From contig CAMLOU010000020.1 of assembly GCA_946481735.1 (NCBI GenBank), positions 1 to 40,650 of the forward strand: a stretch of 40,650 nt of DNA, given 5' to 3'. Source of the stretch: an uncultured Cellvibrio sp. Its GTDB lineage: Bacteria > Pseudomonadota > Gammaproteobacteria > Pseudomonadales > Cellvibrionaceae. Within the stretch, counting starts at the first letter, position 1, and each line of letters begins with the position of its first letter. This document shows, one piece after another, positions 4,492-26,782 of the stretch. The notes below the pieces were generated by a model, which worked only from the letters and a program-made list of their open reading frames with translations, did no database searches and was not told where the DNA came from. The position numbers were made by a program, and so were the translations under genes.

Positions 4492-4511
4492 CACATGCCT
4501 CTCAGTCACAT

Positions 4512-10542: not shown

Positions 10543-11027
10543 TAATCAGGTTGTGTAAGAACAACCCTATCCTTTTCTAACTCAAGGTTGATAACAGGGT
10601 AATCGGTAATTTCCAGTGGCAATTGGCCCTGGAGATTTACATAGTTCGCGTAGACCAACACCCGTTGTGCATCACGATAATTTCCTGGTAATGCAATGCC
10701 TTGCTCACGAAAATTGGGCGGCACCTGTAAACTGCGCAGCGACAGTTCCTTTGGGTACTTGAACAATAATCCCTGTTTCCGACTGAACCAGTCCGCCGCG
10801 TTATCCGGTAGTTGTGCCACCAGATCTTTATCGTGCACAAACACCAGGTCCACCATCACTGCACTGAAGTCATTTACATCGTCACTCGCCTGAACATTCA
10901 CTGTTTTCAATGCTGTTGTGTCACGCCACCAGTGGCTCACCATGCTGCATCCCGTGACCGCTAGAAATACCAGCAGGAGCAAAGCGCGCTGCATTCGATC
11001 ATGTAAAGGCTCAGGGAAAAAATTCAT
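10542..11027 (-). CDS. tssJ: T6SS outer-membrane lipoprotein TssJ
   Basis: The product is 161 residues with a lipoprotein signal peptide: a hydrophobic stretch (about 15-23) followed by the lipobox V-T-G-C with the acylated Cys at 27. An in-frame Met at residue 12 could also be the start. The mature part is a small beta-sandwich-like domain (…VMVDLVFVHDKDL… and …YRDAQRVLVYANYV…) typical of TssJ, which anchors the TssM C-terminus at the outer membrane. It lies three bases after the DUF4150 gene and overlaps tssK, so it is translated as part of the operon. Confidence 0.9.
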   Translation of the reverse strand: MNFFPEPLHDRMQRALLLLVFLAVTGCSMVSHWWRDTTALKTVNVQASDDVNDFSAVMVDLVFVHDKDLVAQLPDNAADWFSRKQGLLFKYPKELSLRSLQVPPNFREQGIALPGNYRDAQRVLVYANYVNLQGQLPLEITDYPVINLELEKDRVVLTQPD

Positions 11028-11030
11028 GGC

Positions 11031-11423
11031 CTATCCCAGATAACAAACATTGTTAGGACTCGGCAACCCTGTCACGCCCGGTGCATTGGTGGTGTTCTGC
11101 AAGGTCAGCGTTGTCATGCGCGCGCCGGGCGCGACACCGTTAAACACCTTAAAACTGCCCAGTAAATAGGTTTCCGGCCCGATGACTGTGCCAGATGCAA
11201 CGCCCGTAGCTGCGCCAGCTTCATCACCATTGGTGATAGTGCCCGGTGTCAGTAAGTTGTGTACCGAACCGCCACCGTGAAACTGTTTAAAATTATTGGG
11301 AATATGCACCATGGACTGGCTGATATTCGGATAAGGAATCGGCACCACCGCCGGACCCGCCGGCGTCAGACAAACATCCGGAAATCCCAAACCCATTGCA
11401 CCAATCTGAGTAGTTGAAAACAT
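11031..11423 (-). CDS. DUF4150 PAAR-like spike-tip protein
   Basis: The product is 130 residues of the DUF4150 (PAAR-like) type. It shows the family pattern: an N-terminal …LGFPDVCLTPAGPAVVPIPYPN… region, then a GDEAG turn, a conserved …GSFKVFNGVAPGARMT… segment and a C-terminal Asn/Pro-rich end. PAAR-like proteins cap the VgrG trimer and sharpen the spike, often with attached or docked effectors. Here there is no C-terminal toxin domain, so cargo would have to bind non-covalently. It follows DUF3540 by three bases, with GGGGTGA as ribosome site, and precedes tssJ by three bases. Confidence 0.88.
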   Translation of the reverse strand: MFSTTQIGAMGLGFPDVCLTPAGPAVVPIPYPNISQSMVHIPNNFKQFHGGGSVHNLLTPGTITNGDEAGAATGVASGTVIGPETYLLGSFKVFNGVAPGARMTTLTLQNTTNAPGVTGLPSPNNVCYLG

Positions 11424-11426
11424 AGT

Positions 11427-11984
11427 TCACCCCATATGAATAACATCAGCATCCACTTTCAACTCTTTTTCGGCAGTAATCAGTTGCCGTTGCGCGTGGG
11501 TGCGCAGCAATTGTTTTACCGTCGTCGTTAAGTCACCGAAGCGCGCCACGCAATGCGCGGCAGATTGAATCCAGCTAGCCGCCACCTGGGTAATCAGGTG
11601 ATGGCAGTTGATCGACAAGCTGCCGCGCATGGCGTTGATATCGCAATCACCAGCAGAACCCAGTAACAGTTTTTTACCGGCGCTGAGCGTTAATTCAGAT
11701 GCATGGAGTCGCAGCGGCTGATGTAATTGCCCGAGGGTGGCCGGTTGCGTCGATGAGCGTTGCACAATAGCGGTGATAAATACTTCGGTGTTGTTGCCAG
11801 TACACACCACCCGGTCACCATTAGCGGGCACGAGCAAGCAGGAAAGTGCTGCCCTTGCCCGTCGCCCGCTACTGAGCAACCAGTGCTCGCCCTCGGCGCT
11901 CAGCACTAAATCAAACCATTGCTCTACAGCTGGTTGGTATTCCCGCTCAGTCGCGGATAAGGCAAATGTCACGCGTGCATTCAT
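11427..11984 (-). CDS. DUF3540 protein of the VgrG/PAAR module
   Basis: The 185-residue product fits the DUF3540 family, which is commonly found with VgrG, DUF2169, pentapeptide and DUF4150 genes. The N-terminal half is beta-rich (…LVPANGDRVVCTGNNTEVFITAIVQR…), resembling an OB-like fold. The C-terminal half (…SINCHHLITQVAASWIQSAAHCVARFG…) is helical, with a basic tail. The biochemical role is unknown; by context it may help assemble the spike tip or load cargo. The start overlaps the pentapeptide gene stop as ATGA and the stop lies three bases before the DUF4150 start. Confidence 0.82.
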   Translation of the reverse strand: MNARVTFALSATEREYQPAVEQWFDLVLSAEGEHWLLSSGRRARAALSCLLVPANGDRVVCTGNNTEVFITAIVQRSSTQPATLGQLHQPLRLHASELTLSAGKKLLLGSAGDCDINAMRGSLSINCHHLITQVAASWIQSAAHCVARFGDLTTTVKQLLRTHAQRQLITAEKELKVDADVIHMG

Positions 11985-13075
11985 TGGCTGAACTCCTGCT
12001 GTGCGCGCTGTTCACCGCGCAGACGATCTTGGTCGGTCCAACTGACGCCTTTCAAGTGCGCAGAACGTAGTTGGGATTTATAAGATTCCAGTTGATGCAG
12101 TTTGGCGCGATGTAAGTCCGCACCGTCAAATACTGATTCTGTTAATTGTGCGCAGGAAAAATCTGCCAGAAATAATTGTGCATCCGTGAAGTCACACTGC
12201 TGCAAACCAGCCAGTTCCCAAAAGCTTTTTTCCAGTTGCGCTTGTTTGAATTGGCAATTCACCAGCCGGGCCTGCTTCCAGATAGTGCCGGTTAAGTGCG
12301 CTTCATCCCAGCTGCAGTCTGTGCACTCAGCGCCGACAAATTGCGCGCTGTTTGCCTGGCTGTTTGAAAAATTGCATTCACTAAAATGACATTCGCCGAA
12401 CTGGCTTTCGGTCAGTTGTGCCTGCTGAAATTGCACTTGGTGAAAGTGCGACTGGTTTAAGGTGCAACGCACGAAGACGGCACCTCGCAGGTTTTTCTGC
12501 TGGAAACGGCTCTTCAACAACAGCGAGCGGTGAAAGCAGGAACCGGTTATATCGGCGTGGGTAAAGTCATTCCCGATCCAGACAATGTTTTCCACCACCA
12601 CCCGCGTCAGGTCAATGCCCTCACTGACGCAATCGCTGATAAAACTGCGTTCCACCCGCGCGTCAGTAAAGGAAGCCTGTCGACAATCACATTGGGTAAA
12701 GGACATTTGCGAGAGCTGAGCAGCTTGCCAATTGCTGTTGCTCAGGTTGCATTGATTAAACGTGCATGTGGTGAGCGATTGACCGGCCCATTGCGAATGG
12801 CTGAGATCGCACCGATCAAAATGGCAGCCGTGCAACCTGACATTGCGCCAGTCACTAAAAGTTTCAGGCAAGTGCCGGTCAATATCCTGGGTAAAACGGC
12901 AACGGGTAAAGATGCATTGTGTCAGCTGCGCGCCTTGCCAGCGCACATTGTGAAAATGTACCTCGGTAAAGATGGCGGTTTCCTGCCGCAACTGTCCCAG
13001 GTCGAGATCACTCAGCGTCTGTTGCTGCACCGGTTTACCGAGCCGCAGGGTTTTAAGCAATTCATCGTAGGTCAT
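11981..13075 (-). CDS. Pentapeptide-repeat protein of the VgrG module
   Basis: The product is 364 residues. The start is the ATG at 13075, overlapping the preceding stop as ATGA; a longer frame reaching 13219 lies inside the upstream gene. From about residue 30 to the end it is built of pentapeptide repeats (A/C-x-L/F-x-x; for example …FTQCDCRQASFTDARVERS… and …CDFTDAQLFLADFSCAQL…), which fold into a right-handed quadrilateral beta-helix. Many positions carry Cys and Gln. There is no signal peptide. Together with the upstream DUF2169 fusion it probably acts as an adaptor or scaffold for spike or cargo; direct evidence is lacking. Confidence 0.85.
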   Translation of the reverse strand: MTYDELLKTLRLGKPVQQQTLSDLDLGQLRQETAIFTEVHFHNVRWQGAQLTQCIFTRCRFTQDIDRHLPETFSDWRNVRLHGCHFDRCDLSHSQWAGQSLTTCTFNQCNLSNSNWQAAQLSQMSFTQCDCRQASFTDARVERSFISDCVSEGIDLTRVVVENIVWIGNDFTHADITGSCFHRSLLLKSRFQQKNLRGAVFVRCTLNQSHFHQVQFQQAQLTESQFGECHFSECNFSNSQANSAQFVGAECTDCSWDEAHLTGTIWKQARLVNCQFKQAQLEKSFWELAGLQQCDFTDAQLFLADFSCAQLTESVFDGADLHRAKLHQLESYKSQLRSAHLKGVSWTDQDRLRGEQRAQQEFSQ

Positions 13076-15672
13076 GCGGCCACCTCCAATTGTTTGGATG
13101 GCCAGGCATTGTCGGTGCGGGCATTCGCTAATTGCGCTTGCCAAAGGTGTGCACGCCACAACTGCGTATCGCGCAGGTCGGCACCGGAGAGATTCATCTT
13201 CATCGCCAGGCTGTTGCACAAGTCCGCCCCGCGCAAATCAGCATCAGGCGCAGCAGCGCCCATCAGGATGCATTGATGAAACAACGCGTGGCGAGCAATA
13301 AGTTGCTGTAACCTGGTATTGCCGAAATCACAATTTGAAAAATTCGCCCGGGTAAAATCAGCGCCCTTGAAATGCGTTTGACGAAAGCCACATTGCACCA
13401 GCTTTGCGCCGCGCCAATCAGTGGCGCTCCACAGGCTTTTATCTGCCTCACCGGTAATCAGGATTTTTTCCAACTGTGCATCGGCCAATACCAGACCTTC
13501 TGTTACGCAGTTTAAAAAAGCGCCCTGTTGCCAACGGATGCCGTTAAACGTGCAACCGGAAAGCTCACACCCCAGCCACGCAAATTGTTGCGCGCTGGAG
13601 TTATCCCATTGATTGTCCCGGGTTGTGACGTCTGCCCAGATGGTCTGGTCGAGCGTGGCAAAGGGAAATTGATTGGCAACGAAGTGCGCATGCCTGAAAC
13701 TGGCACCGCTCAAATCAGCGTGAGAAAAATGACAGCCATGCAGTTGTGTCTTGCTCCATTGACTGTGTTGTAGCTGTGCTGCAGAAAACTCACACGCCGT
13801 GATACTTGCACCGGAGCAATTACCGTCTTTCATTTGTGTGCCCTGAAAGCGGCAATGGCTCAAGGTGGCGCCCACAAAGGAAACGCCGCGCAGGTCGGCA
13901 TTGCTGAAATCGCAATGCGAAAAATTACCGCGCTCAAAATTCACTTCTGCCAGGTTCATACCGACAAAGGATTGCCCGACCAAGGTGACACCGGCGAGGT
14001 TAAAACCCGCCAGCGGTAGATGTTGTTGCACCTGGCTATCCACCAACTGTGCCAGCGCTATCGCGGCGTCAGCGGTAATGGGTTTGCTGATGGGCTCCTG
14101 CGCGAGCCGCCGCAATGCCCTGCCCTGGGCTATTCCCTGGGCGATGGCCTGTACCAGCTCATCCTGTTGCTCGGTCGATAAATCCTGCAGTGGCAGGCGC
14201 GCCAGTTCGGCATCCAGTTGTTGTTGAGGATTTGCCCGAGCCAGAGCCTCCTCCGCCGTCACCAATGCTTCCGTTTCCGCCATCGGCTGCTCAAGTTTTG
14301 CCAGCTCCGCATCACACTGCGCTTGCATAGCCGCCTGCTCCGCCTCGGCGTCAGCTTTGGCTCGGGTCAATTGAGCATCCGCAGCGGCCATCAAGGCGGT
14401 GAAATCCAGCGAGCCATCTGGCAGTTGCGGATCGGGCAACAAGGGTTCAGGCAAGACCGGCGGGGTGTAATCCGCTGGCTTTTCCATGTCCGCCGCCGCC
14501 CAGAAATCTGCCTCCATTTCATCCAGGCGTGCCTGCAACGCCTGGCGACGGACGTCAACGGCAGGTTTTATTGCGGCTGGCTGCGGGGTCAGCGGCATGG
14601 TGAGCTGTGCGTCATTAAAGACGTGCAGGTGGCGGGTAGCCGGGTCGAGGCGCAGTTGCAGCACCTCCTGATAGTGCGTCAGACGACGGGCTTCGCCCAG
14701 CCGCTCATAGGCCAGCATCACGGCCTGCACATCCTGGGCTTCACTGTCTTCGATGGGATGGTGGCCGTGGAATATCAGCACACCCAGGTTCTGGTCGGGG
14801 AAGAACCACAGTGTATCGGCCTCAAGCGGTACCTCGGCAAAAGGCGCGCGCTCGGTGCGGATAAATGCCCGAGCCTTGATACCCGGCAATTTGCCCGTCA
14901 ACTCAGTCTGGAGTGGATGCAATCCGGTCAGGCAATAGGGTTCATCACCTTTAAAGAACCTTTTAAGGCGTTGATCCGGCGGCGCCATGTTGAAAAAGCG
15001 CCAGTCGATATTGCGTGCGAGGCCGGGGAAATCTTCTTTCAGCCAGCGTTTGTTGTAGCTACCCGCCAGCCTGCGCCGGGCCGGATGGTTGATCGGCCAA
15101 GGGCCAAATCCTGCGGGGGCGTGGCGGCGGCGCCCCGGCCGACGGACTTCCCCCGCAAGGCTGATATTGGGCAACACGCCCTGGTTACGTTTGAAAAATG
15201 CCGGCCAGCGGCTGTCGGTGTAACCGCATCCCAGCGGGTTAGCCGGGTAATCCTTGCCCCCCCAGGCGCGAGTGGCGTCCAGCGGCATAGCCGTAAACGG
15301 CAGCGGTGCGTCGACCTGTTGCAGCGGAACCAGGCCGTAACGCCACTGGCGGTCACCGGTAATCCGCAGGGATTTATCCACCTCGCCGCAACGCAGGGAA
15401 ACCATCATCTCCTTGACCGCTTTTCCCTCCGGGGCGTGGGCGGTACCAGCCAGTAACACGTCGGCACAGGCCTTGGGCATGATTTCATCAAGCATCTGCT
15501 GTGCAGGCAAAGCCGGTGTAATAACAGGCCAGGCCTGATGCTCAGGAATCAGCGCGGGGGATTCACCCAAACGGAAAAACGCCAGCGCACTGACGGCCAG
15601 GTGCATTTGCCCTTTATAGCCGTAGGGCTTGGCCAATAGGCCGAGGGTCATGGGTTTGATGACGGCGCGCAT
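13072..15672 (-). CDS. DUF2169 adaptor domain fused to pentapeptide repeats
   Basis: The product is 866 residues. Residues about 1-330 are a DUF2169 domain (N-terminus …KPMTLGLLAKPYGYKGQ…, then …GKAVKEMMVSLRCG…), a family proposed to act as T6SS effector-loading adaptors next to vgrG. Residues about 370-520 form an acidic, Ala/Gln/Glu-rich linker with probable coiled coil. From about 550 to the end there are pentapeptide repeats (…CDFSNADLRGVSFVGATLSHCRF…). The start overlaps the vgrG stop (TGATG) and the stop overlaps the next pentapeptide gene. By family and position it is likely to bridge VgrG/PAAR to cargo. The antisense frames here are shadows. Confidence 0.88.
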   Translation of the reverse strand: MRAVIKPMTLGLLAKPYGYKGQMHLAVSALAFFRLGESPALIPEHQAWPVITPALPAQQMLDEIMPKACADVLLAGTAHAPEGKAVKEMMVSLRCGEVDKSLRITGDRQWRYGLVPLQQVDAPLPFTAMPLDATRAWGGKDYPANPLGCGYTDSRWPAFFKRNQGVLPNISLAGEVRRPGRRRHAPAGFGPWPINHPARRRLAGSYNKRWLKEDFPGLARNIDWRFFNMAPPDQRLKRFFKGDEPYCLTGLHPLQTELTGKLPGIKARAFIRTERAPFAEVPLEADTLWFFPDQNLGVLIFHGHHPIEDSEAQDVQAVMLAYERLGEARRLTHYQEVLQLRLDPATRHLHVFNDAQLTMPLTPQPAAIKPAVDVRRQALQARLDEMEADFWAAADMEKPADYTPPVLPEPLLPDPQLPDGSLDFTALMAAADAQLTRAKADAEAEQAAMQAQCDAELAKLEQPMAETEALVTAEEALARANPQQQLDAELARLPLQDLSTEQQDELVQAIAQGIAQGRALRRLAQEPISKPITADAAIALAQLVDSQVQQHLPLAGFNLAGVTLVGQSFVGMNLAEVNFERGNFSHCDFSNADLRGVSFVGATLSHCRFQGTQMKDGNCSGASITACEFSAAQLQHSQWSKTQLHGCHFSHADLSGASFRHAHFVANQFPFATLDQTIWADVTTRDNQWDNSSAQQFAWLGCELSGCTFNGIRWQQGAFLNCVTEGLVLADAQLEKILITGEADKSLWSATDWRGAKLVQCGFRQTHFKGADFTRANFSNCDFGNTRLQQLIARHALFHQCILMGAAAPDADLRGADLCNSLAMKMNLSGADLRDTQLWRAHLWQAQLANARTDNAWPSKQLEVAA

Positions 15673-18443
15673 CAGATGATCGCCTTCAGTGCGGTAAGGA
15701 TCTCGGCGCGCAATCCCGTGACTGCACTTTGCACACGAGGATCCATGTTAACCAGCAAGCCGCCACCGATTGAGGTGACCGTGTTGTTTGTGCCTATGGC
15801 GCTGATGCTTTCCACCGAGCCGATGGAGCTGAGTTCAGCACTGGCACCTACCACGCTCAATCCTGCCTTGGTGCCGATCATGCTCAGGCTGCTGGTGCTG
15901 GCGATCATATTCATATCGGTACTGACGCCCACCATGGAGGTATTGTCCGACTTGGCGGTGATACTGCTGTTAGTACTCACGCCAATAACATGGGTGTTGT
16001 CGCTGCTACCGATCATGTTGCTGCTGGCACTGCTGCCGATAATCGACGTGCTGTTGCTTGTGCCAACCGTTGAGGTACTGCTGCTGGTGGTAATAGTGCT
16101 GACGCTGTTCTGCACCCCATTAATAGTGGTGGTACTGGACACACCGCCATTGTGGGTGGTGGTGCTTACCACGGCGCCGTTATGGGTGGTCGTGCTGGTT
16201 ACGAGCGCGTTGTGCAGGGCGGTGTTGCTGACGGGAGCAAAATAAGTGGTATTACTCATTACCGGCGCCGTCACGTTGTAGACCGTTACACTGCCCACTG
16301 GCATGTTATGGGTGGTCTCGCTGGTTACCGGCCCGTTAAACAGCGACGTGCTGTTGAGCAAATTGTTATGGGTGCTGAAGCTCAGCACCGGGCCATCCAT
16401 GGTCTGGTAACTGGTACTGCTGCCCTTGATATGGGTGTGGGATTCTGTGTTGCCGATGGTGGACTTGCTGTACTGCCGATCGCTGATGGTCTGGTAACTC
16501 TCCACAACCTGATGGTTGGATTCACTCCAGGCCAGGTCATAGGTCGTCCAGCTTTTGGTTTCTTCGCCATCGCTTTTGTTATAGGTGCAGCCAATGGAGT
16601 GACCTTCATTGAGTATGTCGCCGCGCCCGTGGCTCGCCGCCGAATACCCGAAGCCGCCGCCGATGGAATAGCTCACATCGCGAAACTGTTGCGCGCCCTC
16701 GAATTTGGGCGACAGCTGCGAACCTTTGCTGTAGCGGTCCTCCACCATCGCCACCGCCGGTGCTAGATCCACTCCAAGGCTGTAAGGAAAGCGAATGGAT
16801 TTACTGTCGCTGTAGCTGGTGGAGTAGTTGTTGCCCACATGGGTATTCGCCATCCAATGGGACGGTGTGACGGTCATGGTGCCGTTGTTTTGCACAATAC
16901 TCTGGATCTCCGGAATCTCGCCGTTATCGTTGGAGCGGGAGACCCACACCATGGCGTTGATCTCCGGGATCACCTGCATATGCGACGCCAGCCGCACCCA
17001 CACGGCGGTACCGGCCAGGTCGGTGGAAAACACAACATATACCCCCTGGAATTCCTGGGTTTGGGTCGGCGGTAAGTAGTTGGTGTAGGTGTTGAGATTG
17101 GGCGAAAAGTTGGTTTTATCGTAATAGCGCCAGTCGCGCGGCGGTACGCCGGAGTCGTGGGCAACTACCCTGGCGAGGATACTGCCCTGATGCGTATTGC
17201 GCAGTTCAAAGGGCGTTACCAGGGTATCCGGCGAGGCTTCCGTGGCCTGAAACTGGTTGGAATAGCCGCCATCCAGGCTGCACTGGTGTTGTACCGAGGT
17301 CAGCACGAACCGTTTGCCATCCAGGCTGGGGCGCACCAGTTCCGGCACATTACGCGCGTCCTGCTCCATAGCCATCTCAAATTGGTGGCAAACGCGCATC
17401 AAGGCGCACTGGCTGGTGCCGGACAGGCTGGAGCGCGACGTATCCAGCATTTGCGCCTGCTCCTTGGCGTGGGCATCTACTTCCGCCGTGCCACCGCCAT
17501 AGGAATACACGCGATAAAGATTGAACGGCAGCTTGCCCTTGCTCGGGGAAGCACCCGGTTTATAACTGGTATAACCGGCCACCGAGTCCAGTTGTGATGC
17601 CACCTGCGCGGTGCTGAACACCGCCTGTACCGAGGAACTGGCCAGGGTCTTCTGGTACTGGTACTGCGTGATGACATCGAATTGCTGGCCACCTAACGGC
17701 GCACTGCTGGTCTGGGTGTAACGCAGTGGACGCCCGGCCAGCATCATGGGGTACTTGGGCGCATTGGCCAGCACCAGCGTATGGCTGTTGCCGGTATGGA
17801 CAAAGTAATAATACAGGTGCGCCTTTTCCATCAGGCGCGTGATCAGCTCCAGGTCTGACTCCCCGGCCTGCAACCAGTCCTGCACACGATTAAGCGCGAG
17901 GTTGCTATCGGGCGACAGACTTTGGGTATCAAAGCGAACCGCGTGTTCGCGCAGCAGGGTTTCAATAACCCCACGGATAGTCTGCAAACCGTAGAGCCGA
18001 TATTGGTTGGTCAGGCTGAGCTTCCATAAATCCGGACGTACCGTGGCCCGGTACACCCCCGGCTCTGCCAGTGAGAAACTGGCGATCATGCCGTTAAATA
18101 ACGACAATTCTTCTACCGCATTACCGGTCAAGGCCTGATCGAATAAGAAGTCACCGTTATTGCCGGCGGTCGGCAAATTTACCCCAAAGGTAATGGGTCG
18201 CGCGATGATCTGGTCAAAGTCCAGCGGGTCACCGTCATCCGGGTTGGTGTTAGCGCGCAGCTCCAACTGGAACTCAAAGGGCTGAGAAACCCCCTCCCGT
18301 CCCTGGATTGACTCCAGCCGAAGATGTTCACGCCCCAGAATTCTCCCGTCGGCCAGCCAGATGGCGACATGGGTAAACAGGTTGCTATTACCCTGCTTGC
18401 TGATAGCGGTCCGGCCGACCGACGTGTGTGCTGGAATCGTCAT
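15672..18443 (-). CDS. vgrG: Atypical T6SS spike protein VgrG (TssI) with a repeat-rich tail
   Basis: The product is 923 residues. The ATG at 18443 is preferred because GAGGTG lies five bases upstream and the tssG stop is two bases away. The N-terminal gp27-like part (about 1-400) is recognisable (…LRLESIQGREGVSQPFEFQL… and …YGLQTIRGVIETLLREH…). The gp5-like OB region is diverged: the usual HWDR-type motif is missing, and …AVWVRLASHMQVIPEINAMV… stands in its place. Residues about 688-895 are short Ser/Thr/Asn/Gly repeats that should form a beta-helical spike. The tail ends in a short amphipathic helix. VgrG forms the trimeric needle tip that carries PAAR and effectors. No enzymatic C-terminal domain is seen. 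Confidence 0.9.
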   Translation of the reverse strand: MTIPAHTSVGRTAISKQGNSNLFTHVAIWLADGRILGREHLRLESIQGREGVSQPFEFQLELRANTNPDDGDPLDFDQIIARPITFGVNLPTAGNNGDFLFDQALTGNAVEELSLFNGMIASFSLAEPGVYRATVRPDLWKLSLTNQYRLYGLQTIRGVIETLLREHAVRFDTQSLSPDSNLALNRVQDWLQAGESDLELITRLMEKAHLYYYFVHTGNSHTLVLANAPKYPMMLAGRPLRYTQTSSAPLGGQQFDVITQYQYQKTLASSSVQAVFSTAQVASQLDSVAGYTSYKPGASPSKGKLPFNLYRVYSYGGGTAEVDAHAKEQAQMLDTSRSSLSGTSQCALMRVCHQFEMAMEQDARNVPELVRPSLDGKRFVLTSVQHQCSLDGGYSNQFQATEASPDTLVTPFELRNTHQGSILARVVAHDSGVPPRDWRYYDKTNFSPNLNTYTNYLPPTQTQEFQGVYVVFSTDLAGTAVWVRLASHMQVIPEINAMVWVSRSNDNGEIPEIQSIVQNNGTMTVTPSHWMANTHVGNNYSTSYSDSKSIRFPYSLGVDLAPAVAMVEDRYSKGSQLSPKFEGAQQFRDVSYSIGGGFGYSAASHGRGDILNEGHSIGCTYNKSDGEETKSWTTYDLAWSESNHQVVESYQTISDRQYSKSTIGNTESHTHIKGSSTSYQTMDGPVLSFSTHNNLLNSTSLFNGPVTSETTHNMPVGSVTVYNVTAPVMSNTTYFAPVSNTALHNALVTSTTTHNGAVVSTTTHNGGVSSTTTINGVQNSVSTITTSSSTSTVGTSNSTSIIGSSASSNMIGSSDNTHVIGVSTNSSITAKSDNTSMVGVSTDMNMIASTSSLSMIGTKAGLSVVGASAELSSIGSVESISAIGTNNTVTSIGGGLLVNMDPRVQSAVTGLRAEILTALKAII
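15755..16385 (-). repeat. Short tandem peptide repeats in the VgrG tail
   Basis: This stretch encodes two runs of degenerate 10-11-residue units. The first has the pattern …VTSTTTHNGAV…, with Thr-Thr-His-Asn-Gly repeated. The second has …SIIGSS…, …NMIGSS…, …HVIGVS… and …SMVGVS…, with hydrophobic-hydrophobic-Gly-x-Ser every 10-11 residues. The period and the alternating pattern fit one strand-turn per unit of a beta-helix. The DNA is correspondingly repetitive but not identical between units. Confidence 0.8.
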
Positions 18444-18445
18444 GT

Positions 18446-19474
18446 TCACCTCAGCGCCGGGATTGTGAATGTCAGCTGCCATTGCTCGGCATCCGCCTGC
18501 GCGGGCATGCTGGTGTTAAGCCGCCATTGCTTGCGCGCCGCCATCTCCGGTGCGCTCTGGTAAAGCCAACTGGTGTAGGCGAGCCGCAGGCCTTTGCCCG
18601 CTTCCGGGTGCGCATGCAGCGGCAACGCCTGGTGGGTTTTGGGCAGGCTCAGGCACACCTCTATGTCATAGCGGTAATGGGTAATCCAGCGCACCAGGTC
18701 GCACAGCCACTGATGGCGCTCACCCTTCGGCTGAAAGGCAATCAGTTGCTCGTAGGTTTCAACCTGGATCAACAGACGCAGTGATTTGTGCTGATCCCAA
18801 CAACGCGTGCCGATCACGGTGGTCTGGGCAAGCCGGCTGTTTTGCAGCCCGAGGGCAATGTGCTGCTCCTTGTCCAGCGGCAGCCAGCCACCGCGAAACG
18901 GTTGCAACTGCAAGGGCAAACCGATCAGGCGGCGCAACAGCGATTGCACAAAACTGTGGCTGCGGCGCGGATGGCTGAGCAACCCGGCAATGGCGAGCAG
19001 TTGGCGGGGGTTCAATGGGCCTGCCTGGTCACCGTTAATGGCGTTGATCAGGCGACCGGGCAAGGGCAACTGATCCTTGGCCAGGCCGAGGTCTGGATTG
19101 GCGCGCACCATCATCCAGTAACGCAGGGTATTGATGCGGTGATTGAACATATCCAGGAAGGCCGCCATGGCGCCGTCGCCTTCGCGGGCGCGCTGGTAAC
19201 ACAGCTCCAGGTATGGTGCCGGCAAGGTGCCGAGGAGACCGGCGAGGATGTATTGGTTTAAATAGATCTGCACTGGCGTGGTCCGCACATCCACACAGGC
19301 CACCTGGTGCTGTGGGTGTTCGTAACCCAGGTGGGCTCGAAAACGGATGTGATCGCCCAGGTGCTTCATTACCTGCGAGCCATCGCGCAGGGGCAACGGC
19401 AGGAGCCGCCGCACAAGCTGCAGCAAATTCAGCCCGGCGTAGGTTTTATGTTCGACCGATGCTAGAGCAGACAT
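18446..19474 (-). CDS. tssG: T6SS baseplate protein TssG
   Basis: The product is 342 residues from the ATG at 19474, behind GGTAGG; an in-frame ATG at 19498 is an alternative. The sequence fits TssG: N-terminal …LNLLQLVRRLLPL…, then …RFRAHLGYEHPQ… and …YHIL-like… family blocks, including …LTYT… neighbours in the C-terminal beta region. With TssF, TssE and TssK it forms the baseplate wedge around VgrG. Its start lies inside the 3' end of tssF by 13 bases, and its stop is two bases before the vgrG start. Confidence 0.88.
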   Translation of the reverse strand: MSALASVEHKTYAGLNLLQLVRRLLPLPLRDGSQVMKHLGDHIRFRAHLGYEHPQHQVACVDVRTTPVQIYLNQYILAGLLGTLPAPYLELCYQRAREGDGAMAAFLDMFNHRINTLRYWMMVRANPDLGLAKDQLPLPGRLINAINGDQAGPLNPRQLLAIAGLLSHPRRSHSFVQSLLRRLIGLPLQLQPFRGGWLPLDKEQHIALGLQNSRLAQTTVIGTRCWDQHKSLRLLIQVETYEQLIAFQPKGERHQWLCDLVRWITHYRYDIEVCLSLPKTHQALPLHAHPEAGKGLRLAYTSWLYQSAPEMAARKQWRLNTSMPAQADAEQWQLTFTIPALR

Positions 19475-21237
19475 TGTGTACCTACCCTGGCAGGCCAACG
19501 CCTGATCAATTCCCCATCTGCATCACGCAGGACAAGGCTGATAAAACTGTTCAGCGGTACAAAATGCGCAAGGCATTCATTAAGTACTTCGCCAAAAAGC
19601 ATCACGCTGGCGCGGTCAAAATAATGAATATTGATTGCCAGGGTCAGTTCAGTGCCGTGACAGTAACCACGCCAGGCTTCATCGCCAACGTGGTGCCCCA
19701 CCATTCGGCACGTCAAGGTAAGGAGTGCCGCAATTTGCCGGCGCGCGCCCGCCTGGTCCGCCGGCAGGTGTTGAACCAGCAATTGACGCAGTGCCTCAAG
19801 GCCCTCCTGGCCAGAACGCAAGGGTAGATAGTGGCTGTTCAGTTGCGCGACCAGGCGGCGGGTCTGGTCGCCGGTTAATTGCGGTGATTGATGGCGGCTC
19901 GGGCGCTTGAGCATACGCGCTGTCTGCACGACCCCGGGCACATCCATCTGCAGGTTGCCCGCCAATGGCAGGCGCTCCGGTAAATTGCGGTTGGTACACC
20001 AGGCACGCCCCATCACACTCATGCCCGGTTGCCAGTCCGGTTCAAATTGTTCATTCAGGAAACGCAGAAAATATTCTGTGCCGGTCACCGAAGGCAATTG
20101 GCTAGGCTCGCGTCGTGCCACCCAATATCCGAATGGTGAGTTGCGGTCACCATAGAGCGGCTGCAACGGCTGGGTCGTACCGTCAGGATACAAAAAGTAC
20201 ACTTCGCCCAACGAATGAATTTCACAGTGTGCATGATGGAATTGATCGCCGGTAACCGGATATTCCAAACGCGTTGCACGCAAATGAATAGGCTCAATGG
20301 CCTGGCGGAATAAATTAATCACCGGTGCGCAATTCACTTTGAAGGCGTCGGTTGTGGGCACCTCGCATTCTTGCGATAAGAGAAAGATGATCTCCAGTTC
20401 CTGCTCAAAGCCTTTGGTGCTTAATCCTTGCAAGGTACCGAACAGGAATTTATCGGGAAACAGAAAATACTCTCGCAGCAACGGCAAGCCCGGATTAACC
20501 CCGGCATCACCGGGCAGAAGCGAATCTTCCGTATCCAGACCTTTAAATGTCAATGCAGAAACAGGCAAGGTGTAACAGGTGTCATCAACCGGGTTGCGCA
20601 CCAGAATGCCCTGCAAATGATTCTGCAATTGATCGTACAAACGAAAGCGATCCGGACCATGCAAATAAAATGATAATCGCTGCAAGGGCAAGCCATCAAA
20701 GCGAAAACCCTGGAATGTACGCAAGTGGACGCACAGTGCTGCAAAGACACCGCTGCCAGGTTTTACCGCACTGATTAAATTGTGTGGTGGCATCGTTACC
20801 CGGGTTACTTCTATCGGCCAGACTTCCGTATCGTAACGGGTAATAAAACGGCAAGGATAACGTTTGCCATGCAAATCAATTTCTGTGGACATTGGCGTAT
20901 TGCGTTTAACACATTGCACGCTGGCAAAATTTCCCTGGATCACATCAAACTGCACCACTGATGCGGCAGGCCATGGCGCTTCCAGGTGGGGCGATAATGC
21001 GGCCAGTAACTGATTGGGTAATAAGGCATCATCCAGATCCATCTGATAACGCAGGTGCCCGGTGAGATAAGCAAAGGATTGCAACATCATCTCAATATGA
21101 GGATCACCGGAGCGTTCACGGTTCAGCGAAAGCTCATGCGCCACCTCCGGGTAATCGCCGGCAAAACGCACCGACTCGGTACGCAGGTATTCCAGCTCTT
21201 CGAGGAAATAACGCTTTAGGGTTTCATCCGATAACAT
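19462..21237 (-). CDS. tssF: T6SS baseplate protein TssF
   Basis: The product is 591 residues. The N-terminus …YFLEELEYLRTESVRFAGDYPEVA… and the following …DPHIEMMLQSFAYLTGHL… block are diagnostic for TssF, the large wedge subunit of the T6SS baseplate. Length fits the usual 580-620. The ATG at 21237 overlaps the tssE stop as TAATG, and the 3' end overlaps tssG. Confidence 0.94.
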   Translation of the reverse strand: MLSDETLKRYFLEELEYLRTESVRFAGDYPEVAHELSLNRERSGDPHIEMMLQSFAYLTGHLRYQMDLDDALLPNQLLAALSPHLEAPWPAASVVQFDVIQGNFASVQCVKRNTPMSTEIDLHGKRYPCRFITRYDTEVWPIEVTRVTMPPHNLISAVKPGSGVFAALCVHLRTFQGFRFDGLPLQRLSFYLHGPDRFRLYDQLQNHLQGILVRNPVDDTCYTLPVSALTFKGLDTEDSLLPGDAGVNPGLPLLREYFLFPDKFLFGTLQGLSTKGFEQELEIIFLLSQECEVPTTDAFKVNCAPVINLFRQAIEPIHLRATRLEYPVTGDQFHHAHCEIHSLGEVYFLYPDGTTQPLQPLYGDRNSPFGYWVARREPSQLPSVTGTEYFLRFLNEQFEPDWQPGMSVMGRAWCTNRNLPERLPLAGNLQMDVPGVVQTARMLKRPSRHQSPQLTGDQTRRLVAQLNSHYLPLRSGQEGLEALRQLLVQHLPADQAGARRQIAALLTLTCRMVGHHVGDEAWRGYCHGTELTLAINIHYFDRASVMLFGEVLNECLAHFVPLNSFISLVLRDADGELIRRWPARVGTQCLL

Positions 21238-21569
21238 TATTCGCCCAATCTCCAGTTGACAGATTCATCTGCCTGATCACGCAATTGCGCACTGATATGT
21301 AACTGGCCATCGACCACATCGACAGCAATCTGCTTAAGCCGTGGTTCAAACTGGTAAATCCGCTGGGACAGTGCTTCACCGTAACGCTCAAGCGCTGCAT
21401 CACCTGGCCCTAGCTCCACGACATGAGGCACACCAAAATTCAGAATGCCCGGTGGTGCGTCCTTGTTTTTCAGTATGGCTGTTGCGGTGAGCTGCAAAAC
21501 TGACTCGCGCACGGCTTCTTTGATATTCCAGTCAGTTTCATGACACAGGCGTTCAAACAGGAGCTTCAT
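21237..21569 (-). CDS. tssE: T6SS baseplate protein TssE (gp25-like)
   Basis: The product is 110 residues from the ATG at 21569, which has GAGG eight bases upstream; the in-frame ATG at 21575 is only two bases from that site. The gp25-like lysozyme-related fold is indicated by …ILNFGVPHVVELG… and the family-typical …YQFEPRLKQIAVDV… strand, which contributes the EPRL motif. TssE starts sheath polymerisation at the baseplate. At about 110 residues it is shorter than the usual 130-170, because the N-terminal extension before …LLFERL… is missing. It is the first gene of the tssEFG block. Confidence 0.87.
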   Translation of the reverse strand: MKLLFERLCHETDWNIKEAVRESVLQLTATAILKNKDAPPGILNFGVPHVVELGPGDAALERYGEALSQRIYQFEPRLKQIAVDVVDGQLHISAQLRDQADESVNWRLGE

Positions 21570-21628
21570 CAGCATGGCCTCGATGCACGTTTCAACTCGC
21601 CATTCCTACATTTCTCATGGCGCAACGG

Positions 21629-21671: not shown

Positions 21672-22268
21672 TCAGAACGTCGGTGAGTTATCAGTGAACT
21701 GTCCGATGGGTCGGTTGCGTGACACACTCCAGCCGGACATCTTGTTGCCCGCCAGGGAGGTATCCGCATTTTGCACCGTGTAGGTCCACAAAATTTCCGT
21801 GAAATTCAGCTTGAATTGCTCGGTGGGCATATCGTTGGGATGCGATTGGAACTGAATTTCACTGATCAACGCATCGCGCAATTCGAAAGTAAGAATGTTT
21901 GCGGTTTTATCACCGGAATTACGCAGGATATAAATACGGGTCGGTTTATCAGCGCCCTTTCCAATGGGTTCCGCACGCAGGCAAAACTCATAAAATTTTA
22001 CCGAGGTTTTGTCGACGTATTTCACACAAGTGAATTCGGTAATGATCGGACGACCGGAGGTGCGCGCCGAATTACTGACATCGGTGGTAACCTGTTGCTT
22101 CATGCCCTGGTGAATAGATACCAATTCAATACACTGACCAAAGTTTTTACCCAGGTCTTCGGTCAGGCCGGGCTTGTCAATCAGGCTACCGCCAGTGGTC
22201 CAGGTATTGGAATCCCCCGCACCAAAAATACCTTCCGCGTTACCAGGTTGTAATAAGATTAAATCCAT
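21672..22268 (-). CDS. hcp: T6SS tube protein Hcp (TssD)
   Basis: The product is 198 residues. Family-typical blocks are …CIELVSIHQGMKQQVTTDVS… near residue 46, …FTCVKYVDKTSVKFYEFCLR… in the middle, and …EIQFQSHPNDMPTEQFKLNF… towards the end. Hcp hexamers stack into the inner tube that is fired through the sheath and can carry small effectors in its lumen. The C-terminal 30 residues (…SLAGNKMSGWSVSRNRPIG…) extend past the core. It starts 17 bases after the sheath gene, with AAGGGG upstream, and is followed by a perfect stem-loop. Confidence 0.95.
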   Translation of the reverse strand: MDLILLQPGNAEGIFGAGDSNTWTTGGSLIDKPGLTEDLGKNFGQCIELVSIHQGMKQQVTTDVSNSARTSGRPIITEFTCVKYVDKTSVKFYEFCLRAEPIGKGADKPTRIYILRNSGDKTANILTFELRDALISEIQFQSHPNDMPTEQFKLNFTEILWTYTVQNADTSLAGNKMSGWSVSRNRPIGQFTDNSPTF

Positions 22269-22285: not shown

Positions 22286-24331
22286 TTAAGCCGGCAGCTC
22301 AGCTACCAGACGAATGGAAGTCGTAAGGTCTTCAAGCTGGAAATGCGGCTTGAGGAATAAGGTGGCGTTGTAGGCGCCGGGCTTTCCCGGAATACTGGTG
22401 ACATCAATCCGCGCTTCACGCAACGGAAATGCCGCCTTCACTTCCTGGGTCGCTTCGTCATCCAACAGGATGTATTGCGCAATCCATTCGTTAAGATATT
22501 TTTCAACATTACCGCGCGTCATAAAACGTCCCACTTTATCGCGCATGATTACCTTCATGTAATGCGCAAAACGCGAGGCGGCCAACACATAAGGCAACAT
22601 GGCGGAAAGTTGGGCATTACTGTTGGCAGAATCAGAGAGGTACTTCTTGGGCTTATTGGTGGTTTGTCCACCGAAAAACGCAGCGCGATTGGTGCCCTTG
22701 CAATGACACGCCGTGATAAAACCAAGATCATTCAATTCCTTTTCGCGGCGATCTGTAATCGCCACCTCGGTGGGGCATTGCATGTCGATGTCGCCATCTG
22801 CCGTCTTAAAAGTGAGGCTGGGCAGACCGTCCAGTAAACCGCCACCTTCAACACCGCGAATAGCCGCCGTCCAACCGTAAAGTGTAAATGCATGGGTAAT
22901 TCGTTCCGCAAGGAAGTAAGCCGGGTTGCCCCACAAACAACGTTCAGCATCGACATTACCGGAATGCTCTTCATAATCATCATGCATAATGACATCGGGC
23001 AAGGTTTCGCCTTCACGCAAGACAGGGAGCACAACCTGCTCTTCAAAACGAAGACCATCCGCCGCAAGGCGTTTTTCCCCATAAGGTAAACGCAGCAGGA
23101 TGCGCGGTAATGTCAACGTGACGTAGCGGGAATCTTCCTGATCGCGGAAACCACGCCATTCATTTAATTCCACGCTTTCAAATATCTTTGCGAGATCACG
23201 TGGTTTAGCCAGTTTGTCAAAAGACTTGAGACCAAACATATCGGGCGAGACGGCTGCAATAAAAGGCGCATGAGCAGAGGCGGCCACCTGGGATATTTTT
23301 TCCAGCAAACTGATGCTTTCTGGATCGCGACCAAAGCTGTAATCACCCAGCAATAAACTGTAGGGTGCACCACCATAAGTCCCATACTCAGCTTCATAAA
23401 TGAGCTTGAACAGGTGGCTTTGATCGAACTCAACCGCCTTGAACAAATCGTCTTTTAATTCTTTCCGGGTAATATTCAATACCCGCAGTTTCAATGACGT
23501 ACCGGTTTCTGCTCGCGCAACCAGGTGAAAGAGCCCGCGCCAAGAGGCTTCAAGCCGCTGGAAATTTTCATCGTGCAGCACCTGATTAAGGATGTTGCTC
23601 AGGCGGGTGTCCAGATCCACAACCAGCCGGTCAATTTTTTTAACCACACTCCCTTCTGCGGCTTTGAGATTGTCGTAATCTGCTATCACCATTTGGGTAA
23701 ATCGGCCAAACGCACGGTTGACGGCGGCTTTTTGCTTGTCGCTCGACTGCGCGTAAGATTCGGGGGTGTTGTCCTTCGCTGCCGCAGTCAGGTCTGCTGA
23801 TATCCAGCCATCCGTTGCGGTCGGATCGTAGGCGCTGGTAAAGTCCTTGCGCAAAGCCTCACCTTCCGGTGTATCAGCCATACTGGCATCAATCAGACGC
23901 TCAACATCATCATCGCTTTCGATCCGCGCCTGCATATCGCGCAGGTCTGCGCGCTTTTCATAAATCTCTTTTAAAGGATCGAATCGCTGCACAACAGAAA
24001 GCGGGCTGAATTGTTCCAGCTTGCTGAATGCCAGCGTACTTTTTTTTGCATCTGCAGCAGGATCATCCTCAGGCAATCGATACGAAAATGTGATACCGGC
24101 ATTAAATGAAGCCATCACCGAATCAAAAATTTCGGAATCAACCTCCACCATCTTGCGCTCTTTCAGGGGCAGCCGCTCAGCCGTGGGGGTATCGCCGGAC
24201 AAATCTGCCAGTATGCCCACAATAAACGGCAACTCTTTCTTTTCCATAGCGCCACCGGTTTCGACATCATAGGTAATCTTTACCCGGGGCGGACGACGTC
24301 GAGCCAAGACTTTTTGAATACTTTCTGACAT
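22286..24331 (-). CDS. tssBC: Fused T6SS sheath protein TssB-TssC
   Basis: One uninterrupted frame of 681 residues encodes both sheath subunits. Residues 1 to about 165 are TssB: …RRRPPRVKITYDVETGG… (11-27), …LPFIVGILADLSG… (34-46), …VDSEIFDSVMASFNAGI… (64-80) and …LEQFSPLSVVQRFDPL… (105-120). Residues about 200-681 are TssC: …RLEASWRGLFHLV… (259-271), …GDYSFGR…, …FITACHCKGTNRAAFFGGQ… and the C-terminal …KPHFQLEDLTTSIRLVAEL…. The linker (about 165-205) is acidic and Ala/Ser rich. The two proteins are normally separate and interleaved in the contractile sheath, and no other tssB is present here. The start has GAGGAA eight bases upstream. Nothing suggests a sequencing error, since both halves are intact and in frame. 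Confidence 0.93.
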   Translation of the reverse strand: MSESIQKVLARRRPPRVKITYDVETGGAMEKKELPFIVGILADLSGDTPTAERLPLKERKMVEVDSEIFDSVMASFNAGITFSYRLPEDDPAADAKKSTLAFSKLEQFSPLSVVQRFDPLKEIYEKRADLRDMQARIESDDDVERLIDASMADTPEGEALRKDFTSAYDPTATDGWISADLTAAAKDNTPESYAQSSDKQKAAVNRAFGRFTQMVIADYDNLKAAEGSVVKKIDRLVVDLDTRLSNILNQVLHDENFQRLEASWRGLFHLVARAETGTSLKLRVLNITRKELKDDLFKAVEFDQSHLFKLIYEAEYGTYGGAPYSLLLGDYSFGRDPESISLLEKISQVAASAHAPFIAAVSPDMFGLKSFDKLAKPRDLAKIFESVELNEWRGFRDQEDSRYVTLTLPRILLRLPYGEKRLAADGLRFEEQVVLPVLREGETLPDVIMHDDYEEHSGNVDAERCLWGNPAYFLAERITHAFTLYGWTAAIRGVEGGGLLDGLPSLTFKTADGDIDMQCPTEVAITDRREKELNDLGFITACHCKGTNRAAFFGGQTTNKPKKYLSDSANSNAQLSAMLPYVLAASRFAHYMKVIMRDKVGRFMTRGNVEKYLNEWIAQYILLDDEATQEVKAAFPLREARIDVTSIPGKPGAYNATLFLKPHFQLEDLTTSIRLVAELPA

Positions 24332-24387: not shown

Positions 24388-24645
24388 TCACGAGCACTGG
24401 TTTAACCGATGGTGCTTGCGATACAACACAACCCCTTTACTGGCATTGATTTTTTCGACTTGCCCTTGCGATTCCAGATAGTCAAGTGCGTGCTGAACCA
24501 ATTCCAACGAATCCTGATAACGTTGGCGAGCCAACCACCAGCGCGCTATGCCCTCCACCGTCTCTGAAGCTTCGGGACAACTGGATAAATATCGTCTGAT
24601 AATGTCTGCTATTGACCGTATCTGGTCCGGCTCTGCCTGTATCAC
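24388..24645 (-). CDS. Small GTG-start protein at the head of the T6SS operon
   Basis: The product is 85 residues and begins with GTG, seven bases after GAGGA. The sequence is helical with a possible winged-helix ending: …YQDSLELVQHALDYLESQGQVEKINASKGVVLYRKHH…, where the last part reads like a helix followed by a beta wing. It has no membrane segment. It lies 56 bases upstream of tssBC and about 27 bases downstream of the predicted start of transcription, so it would be the first gene of the operon. A small regulator or DNA-binding protein is possible. I do not recognise a named family. Confidence 0.65.
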   Translation of the reverse strand: MIQAEPDQIRSIADIIRRYLSSCPEASETVEGIARWWLARQRYQDSLELVQHALDYLESQGQVEKINASKGVVLYRKHHRLNQCS

Positions 24646-24958: not shown

Positions 24959-26287
24959 TCAGGTAGAAAATCGGTCTGACTGGAACTGGTTTTTATCGAC
25001 ACCGTATTTTTCAATCAGGCGAGTAAAGCTTCGTCGCTCTTTGCCTGCCAAACGAGCAGCTTTGGAGATATTCCCCGCACATCGTTGTAACAGGCTACGG
25101 ATATAATTTTTTTCAAACTCCTCGATAACACGCGCTTTTTCCCGCTGGAACGAGTCCAGTGTTTTATTATCACCAGAGAAAACGGAATTTTCCGGACAAC
25201 TTTTTTCCACAGCACCTGATTGAGGAAGCCCTTTTACGTCAACGACATCAATGATTGACGATTCGGTTAACACAAATAATTTATGTAAATAATTCTCCAA
25301 CTCACGAATATTACCGGGCCAGTCATAAACCGACATCCAGGCGAGAGTTTCTCTGGATAACACCTTAACCGGTCGACCATATTCCTGACTGAACCGCGCC
25401 AGGAAATGCTGGCAAAGCTGCGGAATATCATCAGCACGCTGACGCAACGGGGGGATATTGACTGACAGGATATCAAGGCGATAGAACAGGTCTTCCCTGA
25501 AATGCTCACCAGACAGGAGGTAATGGGTCGATTTGTTACTCGCCGCAATAATCCTTACATTCGCTCGCTTATAACTCTCTGCACCCAATGGACGATATTC
25601 CCTATCCTGTAGAAAACGTAACAATACAACCTGAGCCTTGGGTGACAGGCTGTCAACTTCGTCAAGAAAGAGTGTTCCCTTATCCGCTTGCTCAATAAAA
25701 CCTGTATGATTTTTTTTTGCATCGGTAAAAGCACCACGCTCAAACCCAAAAAGTTCTGCAATAAACAGGTCATCACTGTATGCACCGCAGTTAACCGGCA
25801 CGAAAGGACCCGCTTCCCTGTTGCTGAGATAGTGGATAGCCCGCGCAGCAACTTCTTTACCCGTTCCTGTTTCCCCCTGAATCAGGACAGGCGCATCCGA
25901 ACTACTTACCCGATTTATGACAGTGATCAAGCTCCGCAAGGACTCACTCGAGCCAATCATGTTAAGCCCGACGGCTGCCGACAGATGCGGTGGCATAAAC
26001 CAATTACGCAGTAATTGCGCGCACTCTTTTACACTGCCCGGCCATCGTAATACCTCGATGTCCGTCAAAGAGAAAGGATGATTTGAGAAATGAATAAGCA
26101 AATCTGGTTTAGGCAGCAAAGAAAACGAAGGGAAAAAACCATCACCTACAACCAAAAGCTGAATAACATCCTCCGAGGATGTATCAGAACAGACAATGTC
26201 AATCCCGGCAGTGTCCAATGCATTGACGATCAAACTGCGCTCTTCATCAGAAGATATACATTGAAGATATATTTTTGTCTTGGTCAC
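24959..26287 (-). CDS. Sigma-54-dependent activator (VasH-like EBP) of the T6SS
   Basis: The likely start is GTG at 26287, six bases after AAAGGA, giving 442 residues; an ATG at 26326 lacks a good ribosome site. Residues about 1-95 look like a degenerate receiver-type domain without a clear phospho-acceptor Asp. The AAA+ domain follows: Walker A GETGTGKE (138-145), the sigma-54 contact loop as GAFTDA (185-190) rather than GAFTGA, Walker B GTLFLDEVD (204-212), and …FREDLFYRLDIL… sensor region. A Fis-type helix-turn-helix closes the protein (…NISKAARLAGKERRSFTRLI…). It would bind upstream palindromes and activate sigma-54 RNA polymerase. It sits directly upstream of the T6SS operon on the same strand. 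Confidence 0.88.
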   Translation of the reverse strand: MTKTKIYLQCISSDEERSLIVNALDTAGIDIVCSDTSSEDVIQLLVVGDGFFPSFSLLPKPDLLIHFSNHPFSLTDIEVLRWPGSVKECAQLLRNWFMPPHLSAAVGLNMIGSSESLRSLITVINRVSSSDAPVLIQGETGTGKEVAARAIHYLSNREAGPFVPVNCGAYSDDLFIAELFGFERGAFTDAKKNHTGFIEQADKGTLFLDEVDSLSPKAQVVLLRFLQDREYRPLGAESYKRANVRIIAASNKSTHYLLSGEHFREDLFYRLDILSVNIPPLRQRADDIPQLCQHFLARFSQEYGRPVKVLSRETLAWMSVYDWPGNIRELENYLHKLFVLTESSIIDVVDVKGLPQSGAVEKSCPENSVFSGDNKTLDSFQREKARVIEEFEKNYIRSLLQRCAGNISKAARLAGKERRSFTRLIEKYGVDKNQFQSDRFST

Positions 26288-26782
26288 ACGCTTTCCTTTA
26301 TATGAAACAACCTGCTCAAAAAACATACCAACCGATAAACTGCCAACTCAGTTTTGAGAACTTAGGCAACAAAGTAAAAGTGTGCAAGCACGAATCACAA
26401 AAAAAATATTACACGGTATTTCATGGCACACTTTTTAACGAAAAAAAACGTGAATTGCATAAGCAGAGTGTGAGCATTATTTTTTAATATATGCCCAATG
26501 TGCTTTTTTACTTTTAACTGATGGGCACTCGCAAAGTGCCAGGTTCTTTTCAAAAATAATTTTTCAATGCGTCAGTGCCTGGATTGAACCTGTTCTACCG
26601 GCACTACCTGCCAGAAATCACACGCTATCAGCGACCGCCGACCAGCCCCCAACAGGGTCCTTTTGACCGTGGGAGTCCGAAATCCGTCAACCGAAAGCCA
26701 AAACCGGCCTTCGTATTGAAAACGTCAATAAACTGTGGGACATTACCGGTTTTCAAGTAAGGCCTGTGATAGATTTGCGCCG

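Follow-up and report, generated by a model that had tools for sequence, protein, structure and literature searches.

One gene in a 40,650-nt stretch of DNA from an uncultured Cellvibrio sp. (contig CAMLOU010000020.1; the whole stretch is referred to as the window) encodes both sheath proteins of a type VI secretion system (T6SS) in a single 681-residue frame, here called tssBC. TssB and TssC (VipA and VipB) are normally separate proteins in the contractile sheath; tssBC is a natural one-chain TssB-TssC. Very likely, tssBC supplies a distinct lineage of T6SS with a ClpV-independent single-chain sheath subunit, which is probably the only one that the lineage has. Judged from the sequences, its product is probably the working sheath of the lineage.

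The fused gene

The frame of tssBC runs from ATG to TAA through 681 codons without an internal stop on the minus strand, which was not given in the preliminary description of this DNA and was established here. The gene and its parts are as follows.

22286..24331, minus strand: tssBC, one-chain sheath subunit, 681 aa (open reading frame (ORF), Pfam and NCBIfam profiles)
23843..24304, minus strand: TssB (VipA) domain, residues 10-163 (PF05591, 117.9 bits, cut-off 24)
23633..23842, minus strand: join, residues 164-233 (ordered helices in the predicted model; strict ClpV-binding motif LL[DE]x[IV][IVL] absent)
22658..23632, minus strand: TssC (VipB) domain, residues 234-558 (PF05943, 387.9 bits)
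22295..22627, minus strand: TssC gpW/gp25-like C-terminal domain, residues 569-679 (PF18945 VipB_2, 147.5 bits)

The curated cut-offs were exceeded by both sheath domains, with the NCBIfam models TIGR03358 (118.7 bits, cut-off 97.25) and TIGR03355 (589.5 bits, cut-off 271.5) as well as with Pfam, and the complete TssB and complete TssC described for this frame were thus both recovered; neither half failed the profile check that had been set beforehand. At E ≤ 0.001 only the VipA/VipB families of Pfam were matched, and no phage sheath family was. In agreement with the claim that the locus holds no other tssB, a second TssB was not found in the window by phmmer with the TssB half as the query (E ≤ 10).

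A frameshift at the junction had been named as an observation that would overturn the fusion, and it is contradicted by the unbroken joins of the relatives P0002, P0003 and P0004, in which the identity is 99, 93 and 80% for TssB, 100, 80 and 62% for the join and 100, 98 and 93% for TssC, respectively (P0002 may derive from the window's own organism). Because these relatives and 24 loci from other genomes share the fused frame, a frameshift or assembly artefact was ruled out. Given a natural one-chain TssB-TssC, the suggestion that covalent linkage fixes a 1:1 stoichiometry is supported.

Distribution and origin of the fusion

The search for proteins matching both families, as had been proposed, found many. 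With the TssB half as the query, 216 long proteins were obtained (candidate length being tied to the whole protein), and 120 of the 120 listed carry PF05591 and PF05943. With the TssC half, which brings no bias toward fusions, PF05591 was present in 110 of the best 120 matches from the 7997 candidates sharing most words. The named sources are Gynuella, Zooshikella, Chitinimonas, Burkholderia, Herbaspirillum, Massilia, Trinickia, Aliikangiella, Alteromonas and a Polyangiaceae metagenome-assembled genome. The fusions are annotated, where named, mostly as "sheath large subunit" or ImpC, with a few rows naming both ImpC and ImpB; the former annotation would report tssB and tssH as missing from a complete system.

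Genomes with a frame-checked fusion numbered 13 of the 300 sampled from one order, at least 9 of 349 from one family (a lower bound set by the strict E limit) and 3 of 21 from another family, Robbsia G009 being counted in both the order and the 349-genome samples. A class sample of 369 genomes holds at least one confirmed fusion, G659, which also belongs to the three of the 21-genome family. Other candidates were rejected. L001-L008 matched both halves in separate frames and are split, and L010 and L011 were matched via TssB alone; among L001-L011, only L009 is fused. G249:C1:3186177 and G102:C7, fused by open frame at first, were split on check, as were G912 and G939 (349-genome family sample) and G600 (369-genome class sample), the last of which was excluded from the ClpV tally with a TssB score under the limit. 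Among 438 matching records of a plasmid collection, TssB and TssC were in two pieces in 12 of the 12 listed, and the single annotated row has separate genes.

A similarity filter reduced 288 rows to 121, of which 63 are fused and 58 split, and the quick TssC tree built from these contained two state changes, one of them being P0131. This apparent split row inside the fused clade is 464 aa long on a 2197-bp contig, its start matches the joins of Zooshikella fusions, and it was read as a truncation. In a careful tree of 69 rows, with 27 of the 63 fused rows hand-picked to span the quick tree and 42 split rows (left after the removal of 16, namely P0131, six distant rows and nine rows with a second-copy TssC), 27 of 27 fused rows formed one clade with support of 100/99, which was recovered in 200 of 200 bootstrap trees. 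Its sister is a group of 13 split rows (98/91), the two groups together being supported at 100/99, and the TssC half of the window fusion groups among T6SS TssC. Because the fused rows are one clade beside a split sister, the fusion would be derived, and not a relic of a phage ancestor, if the root of this unrooted tree lies among the split forms.

Two further arrangements were noticed. A second, divergent tssC adjoins the first at nine split loci of the tree (L005, L007, L045-L049, L053 and L054). Planctomycetota carry a second, unrelated TssB-TssC fusion (L172:9669-11195, plus strand; L173:9256-10986, minus strand; L011:16595-18226, minus strand) of 509-577 aa, with PF05591 at 39-50 bits and PF05943 at 161-167 bits and without the C-terminal PF18945. 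Its neighbours are a normal split tssB and tssC in L173 and a split tssB and ClpV in L011; in L172, no other T6SS matches were found in 20 kb. This fused paralogue might serve the sheath as an accessory cap or starter.

ClpV and its binding motif

ClpV was not found in the window by phmmer with the ClpV of locus L002 as the query (E ≤ 10). In the fetched DNA, cut stretches included, it was found at 0 of 24 fused loci (23 and G1028) versus 28 of 42 split loci (the loci fetched and the split loci among L001-L011). Where at least 15 kb was visible on each side, the counts were 0 of 13 and 23 of 25, respectively (Fisher p ~2e-8, for related rows that are not independent events). By a genome-wide scan, ClpV above the curated cut-off was found in none of the eight fused genomes without another TssB match; the other 16 fused genomes hold 29 ClpV and 36 split TssB, and ClpV never exceeds split TssB.

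ClpV grips a helix at the N-terminus of TssC, which reads LLDEII in VipB (PMC4239648), and the ClpV of enteroaggregative Escherichia coli (EAEC) binds its own TssC helix (PMC5048182). The strict motif LL[DE]x[IV][IVL] was present in 0 of 198 fused frames, the window included, versus 42 of 90 split frames, and a loose form was present in 5 and 63 of them, with shuffled expectations of 17.6 and 5.7, respectively; these frames are not independent, one locus being counted twice and many being relatives. In the closest split relatives, the motif takes forms like TLLERIIQDGKM (P0146) and SLLERIVHEGNM (L002), directly ahead of a block of the SQ..YA..LIG.F type. This block is kept without the motif in many fused proteins, such as MVLDEAQKPYALQLIGQF in P0037, and has itself diverged in P0001. 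Because the strict motif is absent and the fused loci are without ClpV as far as seen, the fused sheath would be no client of ClpV, and its recycling would be ClpV-independent.

Several observations weigh against tying the fusion to the loss of ClpV. With one origin, the correlation between the two is a single evolutionary event. ClpV can also be missing without fusion, because three split loci show none: G286 (L160-L161; sister clade, LVERII) lacks it in a 36-kb contig and, above the cut-off, in its 1.7-Mb assembly, and the distant T6SS of G260 at 695511 (L166-L167) and the C2 locus of G009 have none within 20 kb. Altogether 14 of the 42 split loci are without ClpV, cut stretches included, and the count of 29 ClpV for 36 split TssB leaves seven split TssB without their own. 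Of the 24 fused genomes, 16 carry a ClpV whose action in trans is conceivable; the assemblies may be incomplete, and for the window's own genome the search covered the window. As for the motif, a looser match lies inside 25 of the 198 fused joins, and the strict form is also absent from 48 of the 90 split frames, which include some second-copy, distant or cut TssC rows; many of the 30 split failures listed hold LL[DE]QA[IV] or FLEQAI instead.

The join

In the predicted models, the join is made of ordered helices, which are mostly confident in P0001 and in P0058, whose join has 255 residues. The join length was estimated at a median of 84 residues with a range of 3-323 (196 frames, two negative interdomain lengths being omitted as alignment artefacts). 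A stretch of about 200 residues between TssB and TssC in the G110 fusion (L107:14537-17071) is repeat-like and rich in Gly, Ser, Thr and Val; the other joins are Ala-rich. The predicted whole-chain model of tssBC follows the order of the one-chain pyocin and phage sheaths.

In the solved sheath of Pseudomonas aeruginosa, strand exchange involves the N-terminus of TssB and the C-terminus of TssC; TssB 136-172 and TssC 1-37, at the termini and the outer extremity, are untraced, and the outer layer is the proposed site of ClpV action; the pyocin sheath, without the outer domain, is not recycled (PMC5807055). Contraction is controlled by the length of the VipA N-terminal linker (PMC5797969). The join of the fusions is probably a folded helical domain, as the models suggest, and would lie on the exterior of the sheath.

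The preliminary description had also proposed that the linker constrains strand exchange between neighbouring subunits. This is unsupported, because the exchanged strands are at the TssB N-end and TssC C-end, and the fusion connects the untraced TssB C-end and TssC N-end; moreover, the one-chain sheaths of phages, pyocins and extracellular contractile injection systems run in the same N-to-C order. The earlier account was therefore borne out in the fusion and the 1:1 ratio and not in this constraint, and it had overlooked the large clade, the absence of ClpV from the fetched DNA of the loci and the loss of the strict motif from the join. As the fusion leaves free the strands that neighbours exchange (TssB N-end and TssC C-end), the fused sheath would be expected to assemble and contract like other T6SS sheaths; only the outer domain used by ClpV would be altered, and the contraction arms would stay untouched.

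Fate of the fired sheath and alternative explanations

After firing, the sheath might be abandoned, degraded, or dismantled by ClpB as in Francisella. The chances are about even that there is no dedicated recycling, by single use or degradation, and a fate other than this or ClpB is rather unlikely. We tentatively suggest, at somewhat below even chances, that the lineage went back to a phage-like economy of single-use one-chain sheaths, in which the fusion covered the recycling handle, the unfoldase disappeared, and the join offered a free site on the outside for the insertion of domains as large as about 300 residues, like phage sheath decoration.

The principal alternative, less probable but of real weight, is recycling by the general unfoldase ClpB. 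The Francisella T6SS is a precedent, being without ClpV and requiring ClpB for the disassembly of contracted sheaths (PMC5481754). A full-length match of 807-829 bits to the ClpV model, below its cut-off, was found in seven of the eight fused-only genomes and is probably ClpB by score and length; however, G298 (2.0-Mb assembly) is without such a match, and genomes with split T6SSs only have matches of this kind as well. We know of no ClpB tag or adaptor in the join, which was counted against this alternative. Disassembly by a ClpV that belongs to a second T6SS of the cell would be conceivable in the 16 of 24 fused genomes with split T6SSs, at least one ClpV being present in 16 of 16, but it is very unlikely, as eight of the 24 have no ClpV above the cut-off, none of the 198 fused frames has the strict motif, and the pairing of ClpV with TssC is specific even inside one EAEC strain (PMC5048182).

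A working sheath of two chains, from a cleaved precursor or a TssC also started internally, would agree with the wide variation of join length (3-323 residues), as might be found in a non-essential spacer, and with a Met at the possible internal-start site in 130 of 193 fused proteins. The joins of P0001 and P0058 are, however, modelled mostly as confident helices with no loose loop, and the remaining 63 of the 193 have no Met there (Met only was counted, GTG and TTG starts being outside the count), so that two chains are held to be improbable. An assembly error or decaying locus has next to no probability: the fused TssB does score lower (best stretch 51-139 bits versus 176-209 for split TssB, 24 genomes), but fused frames stand at 24 loci, the tssBC-to-tssA run is complete at 14 of these, and both halves are conserved in relatives. 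A ClpV-independent one-chain sheath is thus the preferred interpretation.

The surrounding T6SS locus

The other features of the window locus are listed in gene direction.

24959..26326, minus strand: sigma-54 activator (PF00158; homologue in 13 of 24 fused stretches)
24388..24645, minus strand: conserved 85-aa ORF ahead of tssBC (translation; homologue in 17 of 24 fused stretches)
21672..22268, minus strand: hcp (tssD), tube (PF05638; 17 bp past tssBC)
21237..21575, minus strand: tssE, baseplate (PF04965, weak, 24.9 bits, below the cut-off of 27.2)
19462..21237, minus strand: tssF, baseplate (PF05947)
18446..19498, minus strand: tssG, baseplate (PF06996)
15672..18482, minus strand: vgrG, spike (PF05954)
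13072..15672, minus strand: DUF2169 and pentapeptide protein, TvpAB-like (PF09937, PF00805; PMC13373197)
11981..13219, minus strand: pentapeptide protein, TvpB-like (PF00805)
11427..11984, minus strand: DUF3540 protein, TvpC-like (PF12059)
11031..11423, minus strand: PAAR-like spike tip (PF13665)
10542..11027, minus strand: 161-aa protein with a lipobox-like N-terminus in the tssJ position (TssJ-like by position only)
9151..10542, minus strand: tssK (TIGR03353, 200.2 bits, above cut-off)
8348..9154, minus strand: tssL (TIGR03349, 61.2 bits, below the cut-off of 89.95)
4512..8366, minus strand: tssM (PF14331, 138.9 bits; TIGR03348, 137.6 bits, below cut-off)
3406..4566, minus strand: tssA (TIGR03363, 241.3 bits, above cut-off)
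1964..3019, minus strand: GNAT-domain protein (PF13302; homologue in 7 of 24 fused stretches, several ending short of that place)

The order is thus sigma-54 activator, 85-aa ORF, tssBC, hcp, tssE, tssF, tssG and vgrG, then the DUF2169-pentapeptide, pentapeptide, DUF3540, PAAR-like and 161-aa lipobox-like proteins and tssK, and then tssL, tssM, tssA, a small ORF and the GNAT gene. Hcp, VgrG, PAAR and TssA, E, F, G, K, L and M are all in the locus, with TssE (Pfam) and TssL and TssM (NCBIfam) below cut-off and in place. The complete run from tssBC to tssA was found in the same order at 14 of 24 fused loci; the other 10 stretches are truncated by the contig or by the fetched range, and the genes in view follow the same order. 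As a query TssE is weak, and it was detected at 12 of 24. At the split locus of G286 (L160-L161), tssG runs straight into vgrG.

The 161-aa protein has a homologue in 18 of 24 fused stretches and also beside tssK in several split loci; Pfam gave no match for it. The 85-aa ORF, with a very weak helix-turn-helix match only, might be a regulator. A simple sigma-54 promoter pattern gave one match ahead of tssBC, which was chance-like. A pectate lyase with a carbohydrate-binding module is encoded near the locus (28518-29900).

Comparison with known systems

A natural TssB-TssC fusion was not found described in the open-access PMC literature (subscription papers and preprints being outside it), nor in the accessible parts of Boyer 2009, the 2014 ClpV co-evolution paper and the Ralstonia atlas, which agrees with the earlier statement that no characterised example was known; the phrase "fused TssB", where seen in the available texts, means fluorescent tags. 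The ClpV-less T6SS itself is known from Francisella, and the words "lack clpV" occur in a Campylobacter paper; what is new is that ClpV is missing from the fetched DNA of fused loci together with the loss of the strict binding motif. The lineage makes it testable whether ClpV recycling is necessary for a T6SS and why T6SS sheaths are built of two proteins and their phage-like relatives of one. It offers a natural sheath without nearby ClpV or the strict motif, a one-gene subunit for structure work and, in the join, a natural insertion site.

The nearest solved two-chain T6SS sheath is 9n4v of Azotobacter vinelandii (594 and 111.5 bits), from which the window sheath differs in being one chain without the strict ClpV motif, with ClpV unseen in the fetched DNA, and in the Tvp-like cassette that interrupts its core genes. 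The Tvp cassette of class III, which loads the spike tip, has the same four domain types (DUF2169, pentapeptide, DUF3540 and PAAR) after vgrG (PMC13373197); the window has them in a fused-sheath locus, in the interval from vgrG to tssK. With the one-chain sheaths of R2 pyocin, phages, PVC and AFP, tssBC shares the single chain and, in the predicted model, the fold order, but its locus is that of a T6SS, membrane-complex genes included, and its Pfam matches at E ≤ 0.001 are to the VipA/VipB families only. ClpV/TssH, tested as a T6SS trait, was not found in the locus; it is not strictly defining, as Francisella is without ClpV. That likeness aside, the Francisella sheath (IglA/IglB) has two chains (3j9o, 210.9 and 35.1 bits), and its recycling by ClpB has been demonstrated (PMC5481754), whereas the window sheath is known from its sequence.
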